From contig CATQHQ010000001.1 in NCBI GenBank assembly GCA_958296005.1, forward strand, positions 574,134-638,133: a DNA stretch of 64,000 bases, given 5' to 3'. How positions within the stretch are numbered: position 1 is the first letter of the stretch; each line of letters begins with the position of its first letter. The position numbers and the translations under genes were made by a program. Positions 4,491 through 35,947 of the stretch are shown piece after piece. This DNA comes from Longimicrobiales bacterium. Its GTDB lineage: Bacteria; Gemmatimonadota; Gemmatimonadetes; Longimicrobiales; Gaopeijiaceae. Below the pieces are notes generated by a model. The model did no database searches. It saw only the letters and a list, made by a program, of their open reading frames with translations, and was not told the origin of the DNA.

Positions 4491-5465
4491 ATGGTCCAAC
4501 TGGACGGCGTCACCAAGTACTACGGCCCCAAGCGGGCCCTGGGCCCCGTGTCCTTCGAGATCGAGAAGGGCGACGCGGTGGGCTTTCTGGGCCTCAACGG
4601 CGTAGGCAAGACCACGTTGCTGCGCATCCTCGCGTGCGGCCTTCGCCCGTCGTCGGGCACGGTTCGCATCGGCGGCCTGGACGTGCTCCGGGACCCCCAT
4701 GAAGTCCGCAAGCGGGTGGGCTACCTGCCGGAAACGCCACCCGTCTACGGCGACATGACCGTAGGCGACTACTTGGCGTTCGCGGGGCGGATCAAGGGCA
4801 TGTCGCAGGAGGCGGTCGCTCGTCGCGTACCGGAGGTGGAGGAGTACGCGCGGGTGGCCGAAGTCCACGACGTCCTGACCCGCAACCTCTCCCAGGGGTA
4901 CCGCCAGCGCGTCGGCGTAGCCCAGGCGATCATCCACGATCCGGAGCTTCTGATCCTCGACGAGCCGACCCACGACCTGGACCCGGTGCAGATCATGGAG
5001 ATGCGGGGGATGATCCGGGAGCTGAAGGACTCGCACACCATCCTCATCTCCAGCCACATCCTGCCCGAGATCAGCGAGACCTGCGACCGTCTCCTCGTGC
5101 TGAACGACGGCGAGATCGTGGCGTCGGGGACCGAAGCCGAGCTGGGCGAAGGACTCCTGCGCTCCCGACGACTCTCCGTCACGGTGCGCACCCCGGCCCA
5201 GCAGCCGGCCGACGGCAGCCCCGGGACCACCCCCGAAGCCGCGATCCGAGCCGTCCCCGGCGTGACCCGCGTCGAGCCCGCGCCCGCAACCCGTCGTCGC
5301 TCGGAACCGCAAGCCGTCACCTACCACGTGGAGGGCGACGCCGACCTGCGAGCCGCCGTCTGCCGGGCGTTGGTGGAGGCCGGCCACGACGTCGTGGCCC
5401 TGGCTCGCGCCGAACGGGAGCTGGAGCGCGTCTTCGTCGGCTTGGTGGGAGGCGTCGAAGCATGA
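4491..5465 (+). CDS. ABC transporter ATP-binding protein (GldA-like)
   Basis: A 324-residue ATPase with Walker A GLNGVGKTT (34-42), the ABC signature LSQGYRQRVG (about 133) and Walker B LLILDEPTHDLDP. The last motif has His-Asp where many relatives have Asn-Gly. A poorly conserved C-terminal domain follows after residue 215. The ATG at 4491 has no good ribosome site. An in-frame TTG at 4422 or 4449 lies by a purine-rich AGGAGG stretch at 4429-4448, so the true start may be up to 23 codons earlier. It is the first of four overlapping genes (ATPase, permease, GldG-like, DUF4340). The module resembles the gliding-type ABC system and would drive export or membrane remodelling; its substrate is unknown. 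Confidence 0.9.
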   Translation: MVQLDGVTKYYGPKRALGPVSFEIEKGDAVGFLGLNGVGKTTLLRILACGLRPSSGTVRIGGLDVLRDPHEVRKRVGYLPETPPVYGDMTVGDYLAFAGRIKGMSQEAVARRVPEVEEYARVAEVHDVLTRNLSQGYRQRVGVAQAIIHDPELLILDEPTHDLDPVQIMEMRGMIRELKDSHTILISSHILPEISETCDRLLVLNDGEIVASGTEAELGEGLLRSRRLSVTVRTPAQQPADGSPGTTPEAAIRAVPGVTRVEPAPATRRRSEPQAVTYHVEGDADLRAAVCRALVEAGHDVVALARAERELERVFVGLVGGVEA

Positions 5466-24500: not shown

Positions 24501-24756
24501 GCGCCTGCGGAGCCATATCCGCTTCGTCATGACCGCGGCAAGCAGCCAGCGAGGCGAGGACTTGGACGTGCGCCCCACCGACGCGCTCTTCGAACGTCTG
24601 GACGACTTGGAGGCCGGACTGGAGGAGGCTCTGGACCGTCTGATGGCCGTGTACGCCGGCGAGGTCGCCGACCTGAACGACCGGCTGGACGCCGTCGGCA
24701 TGGACCCCATTGAAGTGCCGACCGTGCCGCGCCGGAGAGCCGTCAGCCAGCCATGA
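21517..24756 (+). CDS. Exported VPS10/sortilin-like BNR-repeat protein
   Basis: A 1079-residue protein starting at ATG 21517, inside the thioesterase gene. A signal-like N-terminus is followed by a Pro/Gln/Ala repeat (PPVAQPPVARQP). Residues about 60-780 form beta-propellers with many Asp-box repeats (SDDDGAAW, RDGGRSWERV, SDDGGDSWTL, RSDDGGASF, VTRDGGATW). After about 800 comes a beta-sandwich region and a helical tail (DLVAQFDFLIRARDRLNELE). The family is often labelled glycosyl hydrolase, but catalytic residues are not obvious and the substrate is unknown. The stop overlaps the DUF5916 start by four bases, so the two exported proteins are probably made together. Confidence 0.9.
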   Translation: MSALGSVVLVASLAVVSSPAARQAVAQPPVAQPPVARQPGSPLLASDPARWQVPPVELQALRYRELGPFRGGRVTTVTGVAGQPHVFYFGATGGGVWKTESAGQAWANISGDAIAVGSIGAVAVAPSDPQVLYVGTGSDAIRGNVSTGRGVYRSDDDGAAWRYLGLREAGQIGRIRIHPSDPDIAWLAATGHPFGPNPERGVFRTRDGGRSWERVLFVSDSTGAIELLLNEHNPDELFAAMWRGERKPWTMTSGAREGGVYRSRDGGDSWERLGGGLPPLAVPGPTGREEPGLVGKIGIAQARSEPSRLYAIVEADPGPGIYRSDDGGDSWTLVNDQSFLLGRPWYFHNVFADPVDPDVVYVAGGGFHRSDDGGASFRAVSMPHSDHHDLWISPDDPNVMVEGNDGGAVVTVDGGRTWSSQLNQPTAEMYSVTVDDQFPYRVYGSQQDNSTLSLPSAATGTGITLQHWRSHGGCETGPVTVHPRDPAIVVSGCFGGRLARYNRRTEQFRQIRPYPERQDGAPERELRYRIQWNAPVLFSRHDPDVLYHGSQYVAASRDQGGSWTVISPDLTGNDTTRFGQAGGPITADVTGVEIYSALLQIAESPHSPSVLWTGSNDGRVHVTRDGGATWTDVTPPEMPQPATVNRIEASPHREGTAYLAAYRYRLDDFRPFVYATRDFGASWTLLTDGANGIPADHPTRVVREDSQREGLLYAGTEFGLFASFDAGGAWQPLQLNLPPTPVTDLVVHRGDLVVATQGRGFWILDDVTPLRHFVRLRPGDGLVLYPPRPAYRTAAQERDGHYVRDHVYGAMIPRYMKASNPPEGAVFYFSRPVGASGSVVVRIHEDDGDSVRTFPEIEASPGLTRFNWNLDYPGPRAGGPAARAVPGRYRATVEAPEGVASAEFEVRMDPRLQEEIATADLVAQFDFLIRARDRLNELEDALSGLRRVRGEAVAAAASGDGNAAVREAAGRAIAELTAVDEVLVQPKGAGFAAPSRLRSHIRFVMTAASSQRGEDLDVRPTDALFERLDDLEAGLEEALDRLMAVYAGEVADLNDRLDAVGMDPIEVPTVPRRRAVSQP

Positions 24757-27413
24757 CCCTAGGCGCGGCGTTCGTCCTGTTGCAAGCCGCCGCGGTCGGC
24801 CAAGCCGTTCCACCCGACTCGTCGCTGCTGCACGCCGACGGGAGCGTGCCGCCCGCGGTGACCGCCGTCCGCGCCGCCCGTCCCCCCGCACTGGACGGCT
24901 ATCTGGACGAACCTGCGTGGCAGGCCGCCGTTCCCGTCACAGGGTTCCGTCGTGACCGTCCCGGCGACGGGCTGCCCGCCGCCGAACGCACCGAAGTGAA
25001 GGTGGCGTACACCGAAACCGCCCTCTACGTGGGCGCTCGCATGTTCGACCGGGACCCGGCACGGATCTCCCGGCTCCGGGGACGTCGCGACTCCTTCATG
25101 CAGTCCAACGATCAGTTTCTGGTGCTGATCGACTCCTACCACGACCACCGGTCCGCCTTCATCTTCGGCGTGACCCCGGCCGGCGGACGGAACGATCTGG
25201 TCGCTCCGAACGACGGCTTCCAGGGGATGGACGCAGGCTGGGACCCGGTGTGGGACGTCGCCACGCGGATCGACTCGCTGGGATGGGTGGCCGAGATCCG
25301 CATTCCGTTCTCCCAACTGCGCTTTCCCGGGGCAGAGGACGCCGCCCAAGCGTGGGGGATCAACTTTCGCCGCGACATCCTGCACGCAGGCGAGGCGGTG
25401 GACTGGGCTTGGCGTCCATCGACGGAAACTGGGCTGGCTTCGGCCTTCGGCCACCTGCTCGGCCTGGAAGACATTCCCCGTCCCGGACGGCTGGAGGTCC
25501 TGCCCTACGCTCTCGCCCAGGGTGACTTTGATCAGCGGGCGAACCCGGCGAACCCCTTCAACGACGGATCCGTCTATGGCGGATCGGTGGGACTCGACCT
25601 CAAGTACGGCTTGACCAGCGGCCTGACGCTGGACGCTACGGTAAACCCCGACTTCGGCCAGGTCGAAGCCGATCCGGCGGTGGTGAACCTCACCGCGTTC
25701 GAGACCTTCTTCGAGGAACGGCGACCCTTCTTCGTGGAGGGTGCCGGCGTCTTCGGGTTCGGGGGCGTGGAGTCCCTCCGCTTCTTCTACTCCCGGCGGG
25801 TTGGGCAGCGGCCCGCTTTGTTCGCCCGCGGGGCGGGGCAATACGTGGACCAGCCGACGGCGTCCAGGGTTCTGGGCGCGGCCAAGCTGTCCGGGAGGAC
25901 CCAGTCGAACTGGCTTGTCGGCTTCCTGACGGCGACCACGCGGCAAGAGAAAGCGCGACTGACCGCCGGCGCCGGCTCGCCCGTCCTGGAGTCGCCGGTG
26001 GACCCGCGCTCCAACATCACCGCGTTGCGGGTTCGCAAGGACGTGAACGCGGGCGACAGCTACGTGGGCGCAATCGCCACGACGGTCGTGCGCGACCTCT
26101 CCCACGAAGCGTTCAGCGGCCTGCGGGACCGGGCAATAGTCGGCGGGACCGACTTCCTGCACCGCTTCTCGAACCGCACGTACGAGCTGCAGGGGTGGGC
26201 CGGCGCATCCTACGTTCGCGGGTCGTCGCAGGCGATCGCTCGGGCCCAACGGTCGTCCGTTCGCTACTACCAGCGGCCGGATCAGGAGTACGCGACCTTG
26301 GACCCGGATCGGACGTCCCTGGCGGGCTACGGAGGAGAAATGAGCCTCCGAAAGGTGTCGGGGGAATGGCTGTACGGGCTGGAGGGCAGCGTCATCTCCC
26401 CCGGCTTCGAGATGAACGACGCCGGGTTCCAGACGATAGCGGACGTGTACGCGCTGGTGGCCAACGTCGCCCGTCGCTGGGTGGAGCCGGGGCGCTGGTT
26501 CCGGTCGTCCAGGATCGAAGTAAACGTCGCCGAGATGCGAAACTTCGGCCACTTGGCGTTCAACCGACGCGTGTCAGCAAGCGCCAACGGCCAGACCCAC
26601 GGCTTCCGCTCCCTGCGGGCGTCGCTCGGCCACGGCTTTGGAGTCTGGGACCACCGTGCAACCCGAGGGGGACCCGCAATGGCCAGTCCCGCTACCTGGA
26701 ACGGCAGCGTGTCGGTGACGGGCGACTCGCGAAACCGGGTCTCGGGCACCGTCTCCCTTACGTACTCCCGCGACGCGGAGGGCTCGTACTCGGTCTCGGC
26801 GCGACCCGGCGTCTTGGGCAGGGGAGAAGGGTGGTTCAGCTGGAGCCTCCGCCCACGCCTCACGCGGAGCCGCAGCGCAGCGTTCTACGTGACCCAAGCC
26901 GAGGACGCCACGGCGGTGGCCACCTACGGTCGTCGCTACATCTTTGCCGAGCTCGCGCGGTCGTCGATCGACGTCACCGCCCGCATGGACATGGCGCTGA
27001 CCCCGACCATGACCCTTCAAGTGTACGCCCAGCCGTTCGTAGCCACGGGCACCTACGACGACTTTGGCGCCCTGGCGGCCCCCCGCACCTTCGACTTTCT
27101 CCGCTATGGGGCCGGCGCGGCGACGATTTCCCGCTCCGAGGGACGCTACCAGACGGACGCCGACGGACCAGCCGGCCCAGCGGTCGCCGTGAGCTTCCGC
27201 GACCCGGACTTTCGCGTCCGCTCCTTCCGCAGCAACGTGGTCCTCCGCTGGGAATACCTCCCCGGATCGACCTTGTACCTGGTGTGGAGCCAGGATCGGG
27301 CCGATGCCGCCACCGACCCGCGCCTGGGCGGTCCCGGCGACCTGGCCCGCCTCTTCTCCGACCCGATGCGCAACGTATTCCTGGTCAAGGCGAGCTACTG
27401 GCTGAACTTCTAG
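24753..27413 (+). CDS. DUF5916 family exported protein, full length
   Basis: An 886-residue protein starting at ATG 24753, coupled to the VPS10 stop (ATGA). After a short signal there is a family-9 carbohydrate-binding-like domain (ALDGYLDEPAWQAAVPVTGF, TALYVGARMFD, about 40-230). The DUF5916 barrel follows (FETFFEERRPFFVEGAGVF, FFYSRRVGQRP), ending in strands and FLVKASYWLNF, with a terminal Phe typical of outer-membrane barrels. It is a paralogue of the partial gene at the left edge. The likely location is the outer membrane. Function is unknown, though the family is common in Gemmatimonadota and Bacteroidetes. Confidence 0.9.
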   Translation: MTLGAAFVLLQAAAVGQAVPPDSSLLHADGSVPPAVTAVRAARPPALDGYLDEPAWQAAVPVTGFRRDRPGDGLPAAERTEVKVAYTETALYVGARMFDRDPARISRLRGRRDSFMQSNDQFLVLIDSYHDHRSAFIFGVTPAGGRNDLVAPNDGFQGMDAGWDPVWDVATRIDSLGWVAEIRIPFSQLRFPGAEDAAQAWGINFRRDILHAGEAVDWAWRPSTETGLASAFGHLLGLEDIPRPGRLEVLPYALAQGDFDQRANPANPFNDGSVYGGSVGLDLKYGLTSGLTLDATVNPDFGQVEADPAVVNLTAFETFFEERRPFFVEGAGVFGFGGVESLRFFYSRRVGQRPALFARGAGQYVDQPTASRVLGAAKLSGRTQSNWLVGFLTATTRQEKARLTAGAGSPVLESPVDPRSNITALRVRKDVNAGDSYVGAIATTVVRDLSHEAFSGLRDRAIVGGTDFLHRFSNRTYELQGWAGASYVRGSSQAIARAQRSSVRYYQRPDQEYATLDPDRTSLAGYGGEMSLRKVSGEWLYGLEGSVISPGFEMNDAGFQTIADVYALVANVARRWVEPGRWFRSSRIEVNVAEMRNFGHLAFNRRVSASANGQTHGFRSLRASLGHGFGVWDHRATRGGPAMASPATWNGSVSVTGDSRNRVSGTVSLTYSRDAEGSYSVSARPGVLGRGEGWFSWSLRPRLTRSRSAAFYVTQAEDATAVATYGRRYIFAELARSSIDVTARMDMALTPTMTLQVYAQPFVATGTYDDFGALAAPRTFDFLRYGAGAATISRSEGRYQTDADGPAGPAVAVSFRDPDFRVRSFRSNVVLRWEYLPGSTLYLVWSQDRADAATDPRLGGPGDLARLFSDPMRNVFLVKASYWLNF

Positions 27414-27836: not shown

Positions 27837-30047
27837 ATGACCCGGAACAACTGCCGATACGCGTTTCCCGCGACCCGACGGTTCCACATTGGCTTCGCCT
27901 TGAAGGTGATCGCCGCCGTCGCGGTCCTGCCGGTCGTCGCACCGGTCCCAGCCGAGGCCCAGACCCTGGCAGTAACCGGCGGCACGGTCATCGACGGTAC
28001 CGGCGGTCCTCCCGTGAGCAACGGGGTGGTGGTGGTCGCCGATGGTCGCATCGCAGCTGTCGGAGCCGTCGCCGACGTAGCGGTCCCGGCCGACGCAACC
28101 TTGGTGGACGCCACCGGCAAGTACGTCGTACCGGGGCTGATGGACGCCAACCTTCACCTCTTCCTCAACATCGATCTCGAGACGCTGATCAAGCACGAGG
28201 GTCGGTATCACGAGATCGTGCTGGAAGCGGCGCAGATCGCGCTCAAGACAGGTCAGACCACGGTGTTCGACACGTGGGGGCCCCGGGAGGCGCTGGCGAA
28301 GGCGCGGGACATGATCAACCGAGGCGATGCGCCGGGCAGCCGCATCTACTTGGCGGGCAACATCATCGGCTTCGACGGACCGCTCTCTGCGGACTTTCGC
28401 CGGCAGGCGGCGCCCCATGTGAGCAAGGCGTTCGTGTCGCGCACGAACGAGACGTGGGAGCAGGGGACGGGACGCTCGCTGATGTGGATGCCGCCGGACT
28501 CGGCGCGCGCGGTCGTCCGGGAGTACGCCGGCAAGGGCGTCGATTTCCTGAAGTACGGCGCCAGCGGCCATGTGGACATGAACTTCGTGTCGTTCTCGCC
28601 CGCCGTTCAAAGGGTGATCGTCGAGGAAGGGCATCGCGCCGGCATTACCGTTCAGACCCACACGACTTCCGTCGAGAGCTTCGACATGGCCGTCGAGGCC
28701 GGCGTGGACATCATCACTCACTGCGGCATCACCGGGCCGACGCACCACCTGCCGTTGGCGTACATCCGCAAGATGGTGGACCGGGGCGTCGCGTGCTCGG
28801 TGCTGTCGATCACTCAGAGGCGCTTGGACGCGTTGCAGAAAGAAGTGCCGGACGGCGTCCTGACGCCCTACATGAAGGTGGCGAAGGTCAACCACCGCAA
28901 CATGATCGAGGCCGGAGCGGTCTTGCTCGTCTCCACGGACGCGGGCATCGAGAACCCCGTGCTGCGGGCCGAATCGGAGACGCTGGCGGCCGACACGGTG
29001 GACCCGCGCGTCAAGCTCGGCGAAGGCCACTTCAACGCCTTGGTTGCGTTGGAGGAGCTGGGGATGGACCCCATGGAGATCCTCAAGTCGGCCACCAGCC
29101 ATGTGGCACGGGCGTACAAGGTGGACGACCGACTGGGCACGCTGGAGCCGGGCAAGGCGGCCGACATGGTGATCTTGGACGCGAGCCCGTTGGAGAGCGC
29201 TCGGAACTACCGTCGCATCCACGCGGTCATCAAGGACGGCGGAATCGTGGACCGTGATGCGCTCCCGACGTCGCCGTTGATCAGCTCGATGAAGCCGCCT
29301 GGGGTCCCGGCCTCGTCCGACGGGGACAGGAGCGACGGCACCCGCGGCTACGGCGCTCCAGCCCGCCAAGCTGCGGCCACGTTCGTAGAGGTCGGCAGTT
29401 CGGTTCCGCCCGACGACGACGTCGAGGCGATGATTGCGCCCTACCGGTCCCGGATGGAAGCCCACTTGTCCGAGGTGCTGGCCGAGGCCACCGGCCTGTT
29501 CGTCAAGGCCGACCCGGAGGGGGCGCTGGACAACTTGGTGGCGGACGCGGTTCTCGACGGCGCGCGCGAGCTCTCGCGAGACACCGTGCACGTGGCGCTG
29601 GTCAACGACGGCGGCCTTCGGGTGCCGATCGCCAAGGGTCCCGTCTTGATGCGCCATACGTACGAGCTCTTGCCGTTTGAGAACTACATCACCGTGCTCA
29701 CGCTGACGGGAACGCAGTTGGAGCGCCTAGCCGACGAAGTTGCCCGAAGCAACGGCGAGCCCGTGGCCGGGTGGAGCATGGTGCTGGAGGGCGAAGACGC
29801 GACCCGGGTTCTCGTCGGCGGTACACCGATCGACCCGCGAGGGAGCTATCGCGTGGCGACGGTGGACTACTTGGCCGACGGCGGAGGCACGTGGAGCGTC
29901 CTCTGGGAGCCGACCGCGCACGACGACCGGGAGGACCTGACCGTGCTGATCCGGGACGTGTTCGTCGAGTACATTCGGGAGCGCGGCGTGATCAGCCCGG
30001 AGCTGGACGGCCGCATCCGCCGGGACGGCCAAGGAGCTCGGGAATGA
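27837..30047 (+). CDS. Amidohydrolase fused to a 5'-nucleotidase C-terminal domain
   Basis: A 736-residue protein with ATG 27837 after a GAGGAG site. It has a signal-like N-terminus (FALKVIAAVAVLPVVAPVPA) and an amidohydrolase domain of about 45-478. A linker of about 35 residues follows, and then a 5'-nucleotidase C-terminal domain (about 514-730, LVNDGGLRVPIAKGPV, YELLPFENYITVLTLTG, YRVATVDYLADGGG). In the amidohydrolase the usual DxHxH metal motif reads DANLHL (103-108), so the first His is Asn105; later motifs such as VQTHTT, DIITHCG and STDAG are present. The N-terminal catalytic half of the nucleotidase is the next gene, overlapping by ATGA. The exported pair may act together on nucleotides or their breakdown products, which is an inference. 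Confidence 0.88.
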   Translation: MTRNNCRYAFPATRRFHIGFALKVIAAVAVLPVVAPVPAEAQTLAVTGGTVIDGTGGPPVSNGVVVVADGRIAAVGAVADVAVPADATLVDATGKYVVPGLMDANLHLFLNIDLETLIKHEGRYHEIVLEAAQIALKTGQTTVFDTWGPREALAKARDMINRGDAPGSRIYLAGNIIGFDGPLSADFRRQAAPHVSKAFVSRTNETWEQGTGRSLMWMPPDSARAVVREYAGKGVDFLKYGASGHVDMNFVSFSPAVQRVIVEEGHRAGITVQTHTTSVESFDMAVEAGVDIITHCGITGPTHHLPLAYIRKMVDRGVACSVLSITQRRLDALQKEVPDGVLTPYMKVAKVNHRNMIEAGAVLLVSTDAGIENPVLRAESETLAADTVDPRVKLGEGHFNALVALEELGMDPMEILKSATSHVARAYKVDDRLGTLEPGKAADMVILDASPLESARNYRRIHAVIKDGGIVDRDALPTSPLISSMKPPGVPASSDGDRSDGTRGYGAPARQAAATFVEVGSSVPPDDDVEAMIAPYRSRMEAHLSEVLAEATGLFVKADPEGALDNLVADAVLDGARELSRDTVHVALVNDGGLRVPIAKGPVLMRHTYELLPFENYITVLTLTGTQLERLADEVARSNGEPVAGWSMVLEGEDATRVLVGGTPIDPRGSYRVATVDYLADGGGTWSVLWEPTAHDDREDLTVLIRDVFVEYIRERGVISPELDGRIRRDGQGARE

Positions 30048-31015
30048 ACCGCCGGGAGTTCGTGCGCGCCGTTGGAATTGGCGCCGCCGCGAGCGCGGGG
30101 GGTGCCGGCAAGCTGTCCGCGCTCGCTCCCGCGTTGTCGCCGAGGCCTGCGCCGACGTTCGGGCCGCTTGTCGATGCCGACGTGCGCTTGGTCGTGCTTC
30201 ACACCAACGACACCCACTCGCGCATGGACCCGTTTCCCCTCGACGACGGCCCCTTCGCCGGGTTGGGAGGCGCAGCGCGTCGCGCCACCCTCGTGCAGCG
30301 CGTTCGCGATGCCAACGAGCACGTTCTGCTGGTGGACTCCGGCGACATCTTCCAGGGTACGCCGTACTTCAACTTCTTCGGCGGCGAACTGGAGTTTCGC
30401 GTCATGACGGAGATGGGGTACGACGCCGCGACGCTGGGCAACCACGACTTCGACAACGGCGTGGACGGCTTGGTCGCTATGTTGCCCGAAGCCGGATTCG
30501 ACTTCGTGTGCGCCAACTACGACGTGTCCGATCCAGCCCTTGCGGAGCGCGTCCAGCCCTACGTCGTTCGCGAGTTCGGAGGGGTGAAGGTCGGCATCTT
30601 CGGCCTTGGGATCGGGTTCGAGGGACTGGTTCTGGCGTCGCTGCACAAGGGCGTGGAGTACCGGGACCCCGTCGATGCGGCGCGTTCAACCGCTCGCATG
30701 CTGCGCGATCAAGGTTGTGCGCTGGTGATCTGCTTGTCGCACTTGGGCTACCGCTACTCCAACCCGAGCCGTCCGAGCGACCGAGTCGTGGCCGAGGCCG
30801 TGCCGGAGGTGGACCTCGTTCTGGGAGGCCACACGCACACGTTCCTCGACGAGGCGGAGCTCTTCGAGCAAGGGCGTACCGGGTTCACGCTGGTCAACCA
30901 GGTCGGCTGGGGCGGCATGAGGCTGGGGCGGATCGACGTTGCCTTCGGCTCGGCGGGACAGCCCTCCGGCTGGGCGTCCGCGGGCTACGAGATCGACGAC
31001 CGCTACGACCCGTAG
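30044..31015 (+). CDS. Metallophosphoesterase, 5'-nucleotidase N-terminal half, Tat-exported
   Basis: A 323-residue protein with ATG 30044 and AAGGAG at 30031-30036. It opens with a twin-arginine signal (NRREFVRAVG, then alanine-rich). The calcineurin-like metal motifs are complete: HTNDTHSRMD, DSGDIFQGTPY, LGNHDFDNG, and GGHTHTFLDE near the end. It stops at the end of the catalytic domain and lacks the substrate-binding C-terminal domain of UshA-type enzymes, which is instead fused to the amidohydrolase encoded just upstream. Split nucleotidases encoded by adjacent genes are known in some Bacteroidetes; the fusion of one half to an amidohydrolase is the odd part. Confidence 0.88.
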   Translation: MNRREFVRAVGIGAAASAGGAGKLSALAPALSPRPAPTFGPLVDADVRLVVLHTNDTHSRMDPFPLDDGPFAGLGGAARRATLVQRVRDANEHVLLVDSGDIFQGTPYFNFFGGELEFRVMTEMGYDAATLGNHDFDNGVDGLVAMLPEAGFDFVCANYDVSDPALAERVQPYVVREFGGVKVGIFGLGIGFEGLVLASLHKGVEYRDPVDAARSTARMLRDQGCALVICLSHLGYRYSNPSRPSDRVVAEAVPEVDLVLGGHTHTFLDEAELFEQGRTGFTLVNQVGWGGMRLGRIDVAFGSAGQPSGWASAGYEIDDRYDP

Positions 31016-31027
31016 CCTGCAGAACCG

Positions 31028-32038
31028 TCAGCGCCGCCCAACGTCGAAGGAGCCGCTAGCCGTTCGCTCGATCCGATAGTCGGCTTCCAAGGCACCCGAC
31101 ACGGCGTTTCGCTCCACGACAGCGTCCGTTGCCTGCCGCACCATGATCCCGTACTCGGTCCAAGGCGGCGACCTGTCGTCCCGCACGGTGTTCCCCTCCA
31201 CCACCACATCCTCCGCCGGCCCTTCGGTGGTGCCGCTCACCACGATGCCCACGACCTCCGACGACGAATCCGGCCCCGGTCGGCGAAAGCCCGTATCCAA
31301 GACGTGGTTGCCTTCGATCCGACCGCCGACTACTCCGACTTGGCCGATTCCGTGCCACTTGGAGCCGCGCACCAAGTTGTTGCGAAGCACGATCCCTTCG
31401 GCCCTTCCTGCGGTGTGGTTGAACTCGCACCAAATGCCTCGGTTGCAACGTTCCACGGCCACCCCTTCCACAAGGGCGTCACCGCACGCAACCGCAGGAT
31501 CCGAGTTGTTGAAGGTGATTCCCTGGCCGTCCGCAGTGCCAAGAAAACCGTCGTCGATCTCCTGGACGCGTCCCCCGTAGATCCGCCAGCGTTGCCACCC
31601 TTGGTTGGGCTTCGCGCCCAGGTAGCCGTCGTCGGCGGGCGAGTGGCACTGGATCCCGTTGTTGCGGCAGTTGGCTATTCTGGGACTGACCCACGTCACG
31701 TTGCGACACTTGTACAGCTTGGCGCCTTCCTCGATCCCGTCCTCGATCTCGACGAGGGCGAAGAAGAGATCGTCCCCTCGCACGATGTGAAACGCGCTGA
31801 CGGTATCGCCGACCGTGGCGGCGTCTCGGCTCAGTTCGAAGCGACCGCCGAGCACCCGCAACCCGTCGCATGCGGCGTGCCGATCGACGAACATGTGCTC
31901 GGTGTTGGTGCTCCCGAACCGGCCTTCGGGGTGCTTCCGCAAGACCGCTCGGTGACACATGAGCGTGAGCCCAGGCGATCCGCTCTCGCCCAGATCGACC
32001 GAATCGATCAGGTACGTCCGGCCTGCAGGGAAGGCCAC
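31028..32038 (-). CDS. Right-handed beta-helix (pectate-lyase-like) protein, start unclear
   Basis: The frame encodes parallel beta-helix rungs (RVQEIDDGFLGTADG, IVLRNNLVRGSKWHGIGQV, VVVEGNTVRDD). The first in-frame start is GTG 32038, giving 336 residues. However, the same frame continues upstream to about 32146 with the family's typical N-terminus (SRRYGARGDGRTDDTAAVRA), and the frame stays open to a stop at 32237-32239 with no ATG, GTG or TTG. A signal peptide is also missing. The gene is therefore 5'-truncated, has suffered a frameshift, or uses a rare start codon. The substrate is unknown. Confidence 0.7.
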   Translation of the reverse strand: MAFPAGRTYLIDSVDLGESGSPGLTLMCHRAVLRKHPEGRFGSTNTEHMFVDRHAACDGLRVLGGRFELSRDAATVGDTVSAFHIVRGDDLFFALVEIEDGIEEGAKLYKCRNVTWVSPRIANCRNNGIQCHSPADDGYLGAKPNQGWQRWRIYGGRVQEIDDGFLGTADGQGITFNNSDPAVACGDALVEGVAVERCNRGIWCEFNHTAGRAEGIVLRNNLVRGSKWHGIGQVGVVGGRIEGNHVLDTGFRRPGPDSSSEVVGIVVSGTTEGPAEDVVVEGNTVRDDRSPPWTEYGIMVRQATDAVVERNAVSGALEADYRIERTASGSFDVGRR

Positions 32039-32691: not shown

Positions 32692-33567
32692 TCAAGGGCC
32701 GCCCGAGATCTCCGCGTGGTCCGTCGGAGGCGAGACGTGAAATACGTAGCTAGAGGGTCCAATTACGGATGCGAGCGCCCGTCTCGCCGATAGACCAAGA
32801 GGTGTCTCCCAAAAGCCGCACCAGACGAATGGGATCGGGAACTCCGCGGAAATCGTCCAGCCATGTTGCCGAAAGTGGCGGCGCCACCATGTCAGACGAA
32901 AGTACAGCAGTTCCGTGATCACGTTGCCCCTCTCGCCATGGCGTCGTGGGAAGATCCCCGAGCGCAGCCGCCGCAGCAACCGGGACACGCCTTCCTCTGG
33001 GAGGTTGTTTTCCGGCCACGCCCATGGCCCGGACCGCGGCAAGCGTCTCAGCAACCGGGACATGTCTTCCTCCGGGGGAGTGGTTGGCAGGGCGGCATCC
33101 CGCCCGTCGGCGTCGCTCGGTCTCCGAACGATCCGAGCAAGTTCGCCAACTGCTCTGTGGGCCATGAACGGATAGAACTGAAGCCAACTCAGCAACAACC
33201 ATTGGGGGGTCGGGACGACGTGAACGGCGGACCCTCCGTCGCGCAGAACTCGGGCCATTTCGTCGTGAAGACGAGACAGCGACACGACGTGCTCCAAGCA
33301 GTCGGACGTGAACACTTTGTCGAAGACCTTGTCCGGGAACGGAAGAGTGCGGCCGTCGTACTCGACTATGCGGTGGATCCGGTCGTTGCGATAGCAGGAC
33401 CCAGCGACGTCGACCGACACGACAGACACTCCCCGCTTACTGAGCACACTCGCCTGGTAGCCTGTTCCGCCGCCGATCTCCAGCACTCGGTCGCCGTCGC
33501 CGATCAGATGACCCCACACCTGCATTTCAGCGTACCGAATGGCATGGAGCCAAGCTTGATCCCTCAT
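32692..33567 (-). CDS. SAM-dependent methyltransferase, tandem copy 1
   Basis: A 291-residue class I methyltransferase with ATG 33567 overlapping the stop of its paralogue (ATGA). The Rossmann motif I is RVLEIGGGTGYQASVLSKRG, followed by VVSVDVAG and the motif-IV-like FTSDCLEHVVSLSRL. It is a type 11-like enzyme acting on an unknown substrate. Between about 150 and 220 there is an internal repeat: PEEDMSRLLRRLPRSG and then PEEGVSRLLRRLRSG. It is nearly identical to the next copy over most of its length, so the duplication is recent. Confidence 0.85.
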   Translation of the reverse strand: MRDQAWLHAIRYAEMQVWGHLIGDGDRVLEIGGGTGYQASVLSKRGVSVVSVDVAGSCYRNDRIHRIVEYDGRTLPFPDKVFDKVFTSDCLEHVVSLSRLHDEMARVLRDGGSAVHVVPTPQWLLLSWLQFYPFMAHRAVGELARIVRRPSDADGRDAALPTTPPEEDMSRLLRRLPRSGPWAWPENNLPEEGVSRLLRRLRSGIFPRRHGERGNVITELLYFRLTWWRRHFRQHGWTISAEFPIPFVWCGFWETPLGLSARRALASVIGPSSYVFHVSPPTDHAEISGGP

Positions 33568-34425
33568 CCTATCTTACTCCCCTTTGCCGATGTCGGAGGC
33601 GAGACGTGAAATACGTAGCTGGAGGGTCCGATTATGGACGAAAGCGCCCGCCTCGCCGATAGACCAAGAGTCGTTCTGAACAAGCCCGAGGCGATCGGGA
33701 TCGGGAACTCCGCAGATATCGTCCAGCCATGTTGCTGAAAGTGGCTGCGCCACCACGCCGGACGAAAGTACAGCAGCTCCGTAAACACGTTGCCCCTCTC
33801 GCCATGGCGTCGTGGGAAGATTCCCGAGCGCAACTGCCGCAGCAACCGGGACACGCCTTCCTCTGGGAGGTTTTCCGGCCGCGTCCATGGCCCGGACCGC
33901 GGCAAGCGCCGGAGCAACCGAGACATCTCTTCCTCCGGGAGACCGGCTGGCAGAGCGGCATCCCGCCCGTCGGCGTCGCTCGGCCTTCGAACGATCCGAG
34001 CAAGTTCGCCAACTGCTCTGTGGGCGATGAGCGGATAGTGCTGAAGCCAAGTCAGCAACAACCACTGGGGGGTCGGGAGGACGTGAACGGCGAACCCTCC
34101 GTCGTGCAGAACTCGGGCCATTTCGTCCTGAAGACGGGAGAGCGACACGACGTGCTCCAAGCAGTGGGACGTGACCACTTTGTCGAAGACCCCGTCCGGG
34201 AACGGAAGAGTGCGGCCGTCGTACTCGACTATGCGGTGGACCCGGTCGTTGCGATAGAAGGAGCCAGCGACGTCGACCGACACGACCGACACGCCCCGCT
34301 TACTGAGCGCATGTGCTTGGTAGCCTGTTCCGCCGCCGACCTCCAGCACTCGGTCGCCGTCGCCGATCAGATGACCCCACACCTGCATTTCCGCGTACCG
34401 AATGGCATGGAGCCAAGCTTGATCC
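32720..34425. repeat. Tandem duplication of a methyltransferase gene
   Basis: Two direct copies of about 840 bases (roughly 32720-33560 and 33590-34425) are highly similar along their length, including the shared edge GGAGGCGAGACGTGAAATAC. Small in-frame differences give proteins of 291 and 288 residues. Confidence 0.85.
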
Positions 34426-34430
34426 GCCAC
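33564..34430 (-). CDS. SAM-dependent methyltransferase, tandem copy 2
   Basis: A 288-residue paralogue of the gene above. Motif I is VLEVGGGTGYQAHALSKRG, then VVSVDVAGSFY and the active-site block VVTSHCLEHVVSLSRLQ. The internal repeat is present here too (PEEEMSRLLRRLPRSG and PEEGVSRLLRQLRSG), so the repeat predates the duplication. The start is ATG 34430, six bases from the symporter stop at 34436. The two copies may have diverged in acceptor specificity. What they methylate is not evident. Confidence 0.85.
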   Translation of the reverse strand: MADQAWLHAIRYAEMQVWGHLIGDGDRVLEVGGGTGYQAHALSKRGVSVVSVDVAGSFYRNDRVHRIVEYDGRTLPFPDGVFDKVVTSHCLEHVVSLSRLQDEMARVLHDGGFAVHVLPTPQWLLLTWLQHYPLIAHRAVGELARIVRRPSDADGRDAALPAGLPEEEMSRLLRRLPRSGPWTRPENLPEEGVSRLLRQLRSGIFPRRHGERGNVFTELLYFRPAWWRSHFQQHGWTISAEFPIPIASGLFRTTLGLSARRALSSIIGPSSYVFHVSPPTSAKGSKIG

Positions 34431-34435
34431 CTACC

Positions 34436-35947
34436 TCAACCTTCTCCGTAGACGAACCGCTCCACCTCTCCGTGGATCCGCTCCACCGTCTCCTGGGAGG
34501 GCGGCCGCGTGAAGCGCGACACGACAACCGTCGTCGCGAAGTTCACGAGCAGCGAGAAGACGGCGTCGTGCATACCCCAGGGCATGCCTCCCAAGCGCGC
34601 TAGAACGTCGTCCGGGATCAGGGTCAAGGCGAGAAAAGCAGTCAAGCCGACGACGATGCCCGCCACGGCTCCGGCGCTGGTGGTAAGCCGTCGCCTCGGA
34701 TAGCAGACGCCCAGGACTGCCGGCATCAGCTGCAAGGCGCCCGCCGCCGACAGAGCCACGATCGTGACGAGGAAGTCCAAGTTGCGCACGGAGAGGAACC
34801 AGCCCACCGCCAGCAGCCCCACGACCACCGCCCGTCCGAAGGCGATGTAGTGGGCTTGGCTCCGCTCTTTGGCGATGTAGCGCTGATACACGTCCCTCGT
34901 GAGCACGGTCATGTTCGAGTGAAGGATCGAATCCAGCGTGGACATCGCGGCCGCCGTTGCGCCGGCCAGGATCAGCCCGGTCAGCCACGCCGGCGCATAG
35001 CGGAACAGCAGCTCGGGAAAGACCCTGTCCGGCTGGGCCAGATCGGGCAGCACGAGCGCCCCGCCCAGCCCGACCATCGCAATCGGAATGAACAAGGAGA
35101 ACAAGTACAGCGGCGTCGTCGCGCCCAGCAGCTTCAACGTCTTGGCGGACGCGGCCGTGTAGTAGCGGATCATCATGTGCGGCTGAAGGATGATCCCAAA
35201 GGAGAGCGCAACCGTCATTCCGAACCACATCCCGGGCGTGAAGTAGCCCTCCGGTCCGGGCAGCGAGAGCAAGTCGGGCCGCTCGGCGACGAGTCGCCGC
35301 CACAGTTCGACAGGCCCTCCGAAGAGCTTGTAGACCAGAACGAGGGCGCCGGTCCACACTGCCACGTACATCCACACGCCCTGGATCACGTCGGTCCAGT
35401 AGACGGCCCGCAGCCCGCCGGCCATCAGGTACGCCGCCGCCACGACCAACAGGATTGCCGTTGCGAGACCGAAGGAGATGCGGTCGCCCGTCGCCACGGA
35501 GAGGATGTATCCGAGTCCTGCGGCCTGCACCTGTATGTACAAGATCGTGAACAGCACCGACACGATCGCGACGGCGACGCGCACCGTCTCGCTCTCGTAG
35601 AAGTCGGCCAGCATGTCCGCAGGCGTGATGTAGCCGAACTTCTTCCCCAACGCCCAGATCCGCGTGCCGAGCGTGTAGGTGATCGCGCCGACCAGAACCG
35701 TCCATGTGCCGGCGGCCCAGAAGCCGATTCCATGCGTGTAGAAGAACCCGCCCGACCCCAAGAACGCGAACGCCGAGTGGAAGGTGGCGACCACGGTCAG
35801 GTAGAGGACGATGAAGCCGGCTTGGCGGCCGTACAGGAGGAAGTCCTCCATGTTCACCGTCAGCCTCCTGTTGGCCAGGACGCCGATGACGATGGTGGCC
35901 AGCAGGTAGACGAAGATCAGGCTGGTGGCGACGACCCACGGCTCCAT
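34436..35947 (-). CDS. Sodium:solute symporter (SSS/SLC5 family)
   Basis: A 503-residue membrane protein starting at ATG 35947, with about 13 hydrophobic segments. The SSS features are present: an N-terminal helix, DFLLYGRQAGFIVLYLTVV, GYITPADMLADFYES, and a helix-8-like segment AAAMSTLDSILHSNMTVLTR, which holds the Ser/Thr residues of the sodium site. A short cytoplasmic tail (PPSQETVERIHGEVE) follows the last helix. It imports an organic solute with sodium; the solute cannot be read. The small gene four bases upstream appears to be its partner. Confidence 0.92.
   Translation of the reverse strand: MEPWVVATSLIFVYLLATIVIGVLANRRLTVNMEDFLLYGRQAGFIVLYLTVVATFHSAFAFLGSGGFFYTHGIGFWAAGTWTVLVGAITYTLGTRIWALGKKFGYITPADMLADFYESETVRVAVAIVSVLFTILYIQVQAAGLGYILSVATGDRISFGLATAILLVVAAAYLMAGGLRAVYWTDVIQGVWMYVAVWTGALVLVYKLFGGPVELWRRLVAERPDLLSLPGPEGYFTPGMWFGMTVALSFGIILQPHMMIRYYTAASAKTLKLLGATTPLYLFSLFIPIAMVGLGGALVLPDLAQPDRVFPELLFRYAPAWLTGLILAGATAAAMSTLDSILHSNMTVLTRDVYQRYIAKERSQAHYIAFGRAVVVGLLAVGWFLSVRNLDFLVTIVALSAAGALQLMPAVLGVCYPRRRLTTSAGAVAGIVVGLTAFLALTLIPDDVLARLGGMPWGMHDAVFSLLVNFATTVVVSRFTRPPSQETVERIHGEVERFVYGEG

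Follow-up and report, generated by a model that had tools for sequence, protein, structure and literature searches.

The gene described here raises the question of why an amidohydrolase should carry at its C-terminus the substrate-binding domain of a 5'-nucleotidase, and whether the two hydrolytic activities belong together. In 5'-nucleotidases, the base is bound by the C-terminal domain and catalysis is performed by the N-terminal domain, with a 96-degree rotation (PMC8475336). An initial annotation of the window, i.e. the whole stretch of 64,000 nucleotides of Longimicrobiales DNA that was analysed, had proposed that the gene joins an amidohydrolase to half of a split nucleotidase and that the joined enzymes might dephosphorylate a nucleotide and then open or deaminate the product.

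Domain organisation of the fusion gene

The fusion gene (27837..30047, + strand) starts with ATG and is a stop-free frame encoding 736 aa. Pfam searches matched the full Amidohydro_1 profile (1-345) to residues 96-471 (E 5.7e-20), followed by the 5'-nucleotidase C-terminal domain (5NC; 5_nucleotid_C, PF02872) at residues 559-689 (E 7.3e-19, 68.9 bits; profile 19-156 of 158). Both matches are far above chance, and the presence of the two domains in this order in a single chain was thus confirmed. No match to PF02872 besides the fusion gene was found in the source genome (3.06 Mb, 2 contigs). While the fusion itself stood, the domain limits first assigned had to be corrected: the amidohydrolase ends at about residue 488, a linker occupies residues 489-512 or so, and homology to 5NC begins at about residue 513, ahead of the start of the Pfam model (559). 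The GC content by codon position over residues 481-520 (0.65/0.65/0.85) is near that of the rest of the fusion frame. Since this pattern is continuous across the junction, the assembled sequence bears no sign of a frameshift.

Residues 1-41 (27837..27959, +) form, as judged from sequence and hydropathy, a Sec/SPase I-like signal peptide with the h-region FALKVIAAVAVLPVV and the ending ...PAEA, followed by QT, and this segment aligns with the shorter signal peptides of stand-alone amidohydrolase orthologues. The linker (VPASSDGDRSDGTRGYGAPARQAA; 29301..29372, +), where the proposed deletion junction is located, consists of ca. 24 residues and is flexible and hydrophilic. Inspection of its sequence and hydropathy found no signal peptide, lipobox or hydrophobic stretch, and alignments on either side found no counterpart of it in the orthologues of the amidohydrolase or of 5NC. 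As the linker has no hydrophobic segment, there would be no internal start able to export 5NC alone.

The amidohydrolase unit comprises residues 44-488 (27966..29300, +). In a phmmer search of solved proteins, residues 40-484 matched molinate hydrolase (MolA; 4ub9 and 4wgx) and phenylurea hydrolase B (PuhB; 4whb) with E values of 5.6e-87 to 9.3e-81, whereas the next solved family reached only 3.7e-19. The site residues N105-L-H107, K239, H245, H275, H295 and D368 fall at the published MolA positions, where Asn takes the place of the first His of H-x-H (a single-metal site) and is followed by Lys, His, His, His and Asp (PMC4407906). N105, H107, K239, H245, H275, H295 and D368 are invariant in the orthologues. 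NCBIfam models of deaminases and of dihydropyrimidinases/hydantoinases gave weak matches, far under their cut-offs. By its sequence, the unit is assigned to the MolA/PuhB subgroup, and it would probably still cleave an amide, carbamate or urea-like substrate of its own independently of the attached domain.

The two halves of the nucleotidase

The 5NC domain (residues 513-736, with homology to 734; 29373..30044, +) was delimited by PF02872, by an alignment of 14 stand-alone relatives and by alignment with 2z1a, 3ivd and UshA. It is complete, aligning with the 14 relatives over their whole mature length at 61-68% identity. In UshA-type nucleotidases, the base is sandwiched between two stacking Phe residues. 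Alignment with UshA and 2z1a indicated that in the fusion the first is kept (F614) and the second is Tyr (Y678). These residues belong to the motifs L-P-F-E-N and D-Y-L-A-D-G-G-G, and a further motif, N-D-G-G-L-R, contains R595; N-x-GG-x-R and LPF-x-N are invariant across the alignment of the 14 relatives. The Arg-rich motif before NLxxD is replaced by K-x-x-P-E.

The next gene (30044..31015, +), which overlaps the fusion gene by ATGA, encodes a calcineurin-like phosphoesterase of 323 aa with a twin-arginine signal region (NRREFVRAVGIGAAA...; 30044..30160, +). It contains a Pfam Metallophos domain at residues 50-266 (E 1.3e-15) and has no C-terminal domain of its own. The catalytic half is, as had been proposed, a separate Tat-exported protein from an overlapping gene. 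Among solved proteins, it is most similar in sequence to the N-terminal half of 5'-nucleotidases (CD73-type, Thermus and UshA), and the fold of its model (pTM 0.78) matches 5'-nucleotidases with an E value of ca. 1e-18. The dimetal motifs D-x-H, GD, GNH[DE], H and GHxH are all present, with D56, H58, D101, N133, H134, H233, H263 and H265 invariant in the aligned relatives. On the basis of these motifs, 5NC of the fusion and the phosphoesterase are likely to have a nucleotidase-like activity together.

Gene arrangement in relatives

The locus was compared with 121 genomes of the family of the source organism. In ten genomes of one sister genus, an orthologue with 68-75% identity to the amidohydrolase forms a gene by itself, about 470-490 codons long. 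These stand-alone orthologues terminate at the very point where homology to the window ceases: they read '...SSMKV', one or two more residues and a stop, whereas the window reads '...SSMKPPG' and continues into the linker. In eight of the ten genomes, the order is amidohydrolase, S15 peptidase, M19 dipeptidase, a gap, lipoprotein 5NC and Tat phosphoesterase, G015 being counted among the eight although its 5NC lies at the contig end; G013 and G020, the remaining two, have the amidohydrolase and the 5NC-phosphoesterase pair on different contigs. The DNA of the loci L032 and L033 is collinear with the window in three blocks, namely the amidohydrolase, the 5NC-phosphoesterase pair and a downstream sodium:solute symporter gene (34436..35947, - strand; Pfam SSF), which shows ca. 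75% DNA identity to these loci and serves as a conserved anchor, being found downstream in most sister-genus loci. The spacing between the amidohydrolase and 5NC blocks is 4.4 kb in L033 as against 122 bp in the window, and ranges over ca. 3.8-5.1 kb among the relatives. In the source genome, no S15 homologue was found, and the search for M19 returned only distant paralogues (28-35%).

A pattern search recognised a lipobox signal peptide in the stand-alone 5NC of 20 of 25 loci, Bacteroidetes included, and a lipoprotein signal was recognised by eye in four of the remaining five (L055, L062, L063 and L072). Other genera of the family and Bacteroidetes (L073-L075) also have a stand-alone 5NC upstream of the phosphoesterase; in L071 (VXNP01000142.1), the pair is 64-70% identical to that of the window. 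All frames examined elsewhere in the class encode both nucleotidase halves as a single chain that begins with the phosphoesterase. The separate 5NC and phosphoesterase genes of the relatives and of the Bacteroidetes loci bear out the proposal that the nucleotidase is split, and they indicate that the split state is ancestral and the fusion derived. Among the 27 family genomes that have this 5NC, it is a separate gene in 26 and fused in one, and the fusion is thus private to the source genome; none of these relatives has a related fusion, an outcome that the initial annotation had named as speaking against its reading.

The segment of the window that separates the phosphoesterase from the symporter contains a gene for a right-handed beta-helix (NosD-like) protein beside the catalytic half (31028-32038, -) and two overlapping tandem methyltransferase genes (32692-33567 and 33564-34430, -), the proteins of which are 86% identical; nothing in the DNA of two sister-genus loci aligns at the position of the methyltransferase pair. 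Directly upstream of the fusion lies a DUF5916 gene (24753-27413). Its orthologues (56-66%) are found upstream of 5NC in L057, L058, L064, L067 and L072 but in the opposite orientation, and the neighbourhood has thus been reshuffled repeatedly. L064 also contains, upstream of 5NC (4528-4799), a remnant of an M19 dipeptidase in which only residues 3-54 and 338-375 of the intact protein are represented. The remnant provides a second and independent indication that this interval has undergone deletion.

Search for a second fusion

Further fusions were searched for in the family of the source organism, in samples of its class and phylum, and by pattern scans of GTDB genomes and viral contigs. Frames of 400-555 aa with 5NC in the family were rejected, as their extra length is open sequence upstream of a normal lipoprotein start. 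Ten candidate frames from the class, 634-841 aa long, turned out to be ordinary proteins of phosphoesterase plus 5NC, in some of which 5NC is matched a second time. In G065 (L025), the alignment passes the end of the amidohydrolase, but there is a stop there and no 5NC. The pattern scan of viral contigs found no amidohydrolase-5NC fusion, and in the literature we found no description of such a fusion or of such split nucleotidases. Frames of ca. 1050-1150 aa with two 5NC matches were seen in many members of the class, G214, G270 and G267 among them, and are probably tandem double nucleotidases like YfkN.

Origin of the fusion and alternative explanations

Based on these results, we consider it probable that a lineage-specific gene fusion occurred through an in-frame deletion, and that the fused chain is exported and pairs with the phosphoesterase, which changes the location and stoichiometry of the nucleotidase. 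The ancestor would have carried, in one direction, (a serine hydrolase,) the amidohydrolase, the S15 peptidase, the M19 dipeptidase, the lipoprotein 5NC and the Tat metallophosphoesterase. The lost DNA, which measures 3.8-5.1 kb in today's relatives, would have started just downstream of the final amidohydrolase codons and reached slightly beyond the 5NC lipobox; its deletion would have removed both peptidase genes and the lipoprotein signal of 5NC, leaving 5NC in frame after the amidohydrolase. Such a deletion appears to be the parsimonious reading of the collinearity, the missing peptidase orthologues and the lost 5NC signal peptide. As the ancestral gene order is preserved in the relatives, it is possible to name both the genes that were lost and the export signal that was swapped.

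The same arrangement would be obtained if the S15-M19 segment had been dropped in the assembly and the genes were really separate in the organism. Such an artefact would agree with the clear ancestral arrangement, with the occurrence of the fusion in no other genome searched and with the presence of only one genome of the source genus among the family genomes searched. However, the genome consists of 2 contigs with 0.8% contamination, and the junction is in frame, free of stops and has a coding GC pattern. The 24-residue linker lacks a counterpart in the orthologues, whereas a disrupted frame or a join of identifiable sequences would be the more likely outcome of a collapse, and an S15 homologue is absent from the whole source genome rather than from this locus only. 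The locus is also rearranged elsewhere: the position directly upstream of the fusion is without the serine hydrolase, and the gap between the phosphoesterase and the symporter is about 3.4 kb in the window compared with about 0.7 kb in L033. Misassembly is, thus, unlikely. A different alternative is that the fusion abolished the nucleotidase function, leaving the phosphoesterase gene that overlaps it as a passenger in a locus under decay. The lipid anchor, which is conserved in nearly all relatives, is gone from the fusion's 5NC, and pN/pS of this domain is 0.34-0.42, compared with 0.27-0.39 in most comparisons between relatives. Nevertheless, 90 alignment columns show no variation among the other 14 sequences, and the fusion's 5NC agrees with them at 85; all phosphoesterase motifs are retained and the frame is intact. 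Codon comparison with relatives gave dN of 0.16-0.29 and dS of ca. 0.8-1.3 for the amidohydrolase, 5NC and the phosphoesterase (dN/dS of ca. 0.2-0.3). This purifying selection on all three parts shows an absence of decay. It does not speak for selection on the fused state as such, as the fusion is present in one genome only and most of the sequence divergence may be older. We regard decay in progress as very improbable.

The fusion might also have been favoured by a shared pathway, in which the amidohydrolase and the nucleotidase act in sequence on one substrate, e.g. a nucleotide or a phosphorylated amide. Eight relatives that represent the state before fusion have both genes in one cluster, and a fusion could channel intermediates. 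On the other hand, the amidohydrolase groups with molinate and phenylurea hydrolases and not with nucleobase deaminases or dihydropyrimidinases, the gene cluster of the relatives holds peptidases too, and the 5NC-phosphoesterase pair occurs without an upstream amidohydrolase in several loci (e.g. L055, L064-L067, L069 and L071). Since the pair is found in many relatives without a nearby amidohydrolase, the two activities do not form an obligatory pathway. The proposed dephosphorylation of a nucleotide followed by opening or deamination of the product was not supported, given the MolA/PuhB affinity and the deaminase and hydantoinase scores mentioned above, and we judge a sequential pathway to be quite unlikely.

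Under the in-frame deletion that we favour, the 736-aa protein would be exported by the Sec signal of the amidohydrolase, and an UshA-type nucleotidase would result from non-covalent pairing of its C-terminal domain with the Tat-exported phosphoesterase. In this proposed pair, the C-terminal domain would bind the substrate and the phosphoesterase would hold the two metals. A soluble amidohydrolase, perhaps an oligomer, would then take over from the lipid anchor as the carrier of the nucleotidase pair, and we infer that the fusion amounts to a change of location and stoichiometry and not to a two-step pathway. Molinate hydrolase is a homotetramer assembled partly through its C-termini (PMC4407906). 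An oligomeric periplasmic amidohydrolase may, tentatively, have become a scaffold for several split-nucleotidase sites, each completed by a Tat-exported subunit, and so have replaced the lipid anchor in one step, a possibility that we rate as somewhat doubtful. Because the MolA tetramer is held partly by its C-termini, the attachment of 5NC at this end might disturb the amidohydrolase oligomer. An AlphaFold2 model of the whole 736-aa fusion, built on a shallow alignment of 17 rows, had a pLDDT of 45 and a pTM of 0.33 and was therefore discarded.

The fusion provides a clear before-and-after case of the formation of a bacterial gene fusion. If the fusion protein works, a split nucleotidase tolerates an unrelated enzyme in place of its membrane anchor, and the locus is a natural test of whether Sec-borne and Tat-borne halves meet in the periplasm. 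It also cautions that a fusion found in a single genome need not put two activities in one pathway.

Comparison with known systems

The amidohydrolase resembles MolA (PDB 4ub9/4wgx) and PuhB (PDB 4whb) over its full length and shares with them N-x-H instead of H-x-H, Lys, His+6, two His and Asp; unlike these enzymes, it has an export signal and a C-terminal 5NC domain. Both nucleotidase halves share metal-site and substrate-site motifs with UshA/CD73-type 5'-nucleotidases (PF00149 plus PF02872; T. thermophilus 2z1a and E. coli UshA), and to judge from these motifs, the two could together rebuild an UshA-type two-domain enzyme. In enzymes of this type, the halves form one chain, phosphoesterase first, and are joined by a helix, whereas in the window they are two polypeptides and the C-terminal half comes first. 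The substitutions noted above, Tyr for the substrate-stacking Phe before the GG motif and K-x-x-P-E for the Arg-rich motif before NLxxD, are further differences from UshA. The gene order and the halves themselves (27-68% and 41-77% identity) are shared with the split 5'-nucleotidases of related Gemmatimonadota MAGs and of Bacteroidetes (L073-L075), but there 5NC is a stand-alone lipoprotein, while in the window it is the tail of an amidohydrolase without a lipobox. YfkN of Bacillus subtilis is a natural fusion of cpdB- and ushA-type genes (PMC8475336) and likewise includes an UshA-type nucleotidase. YfkN, however, unites two complete nucleotide phosphoesterases, whereas the gene in the window joins an unrelated hydrolase to half a nucleotidase. 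The latter gene seems to represent an isolated, if unusual, fusion and not a new enzyme system.
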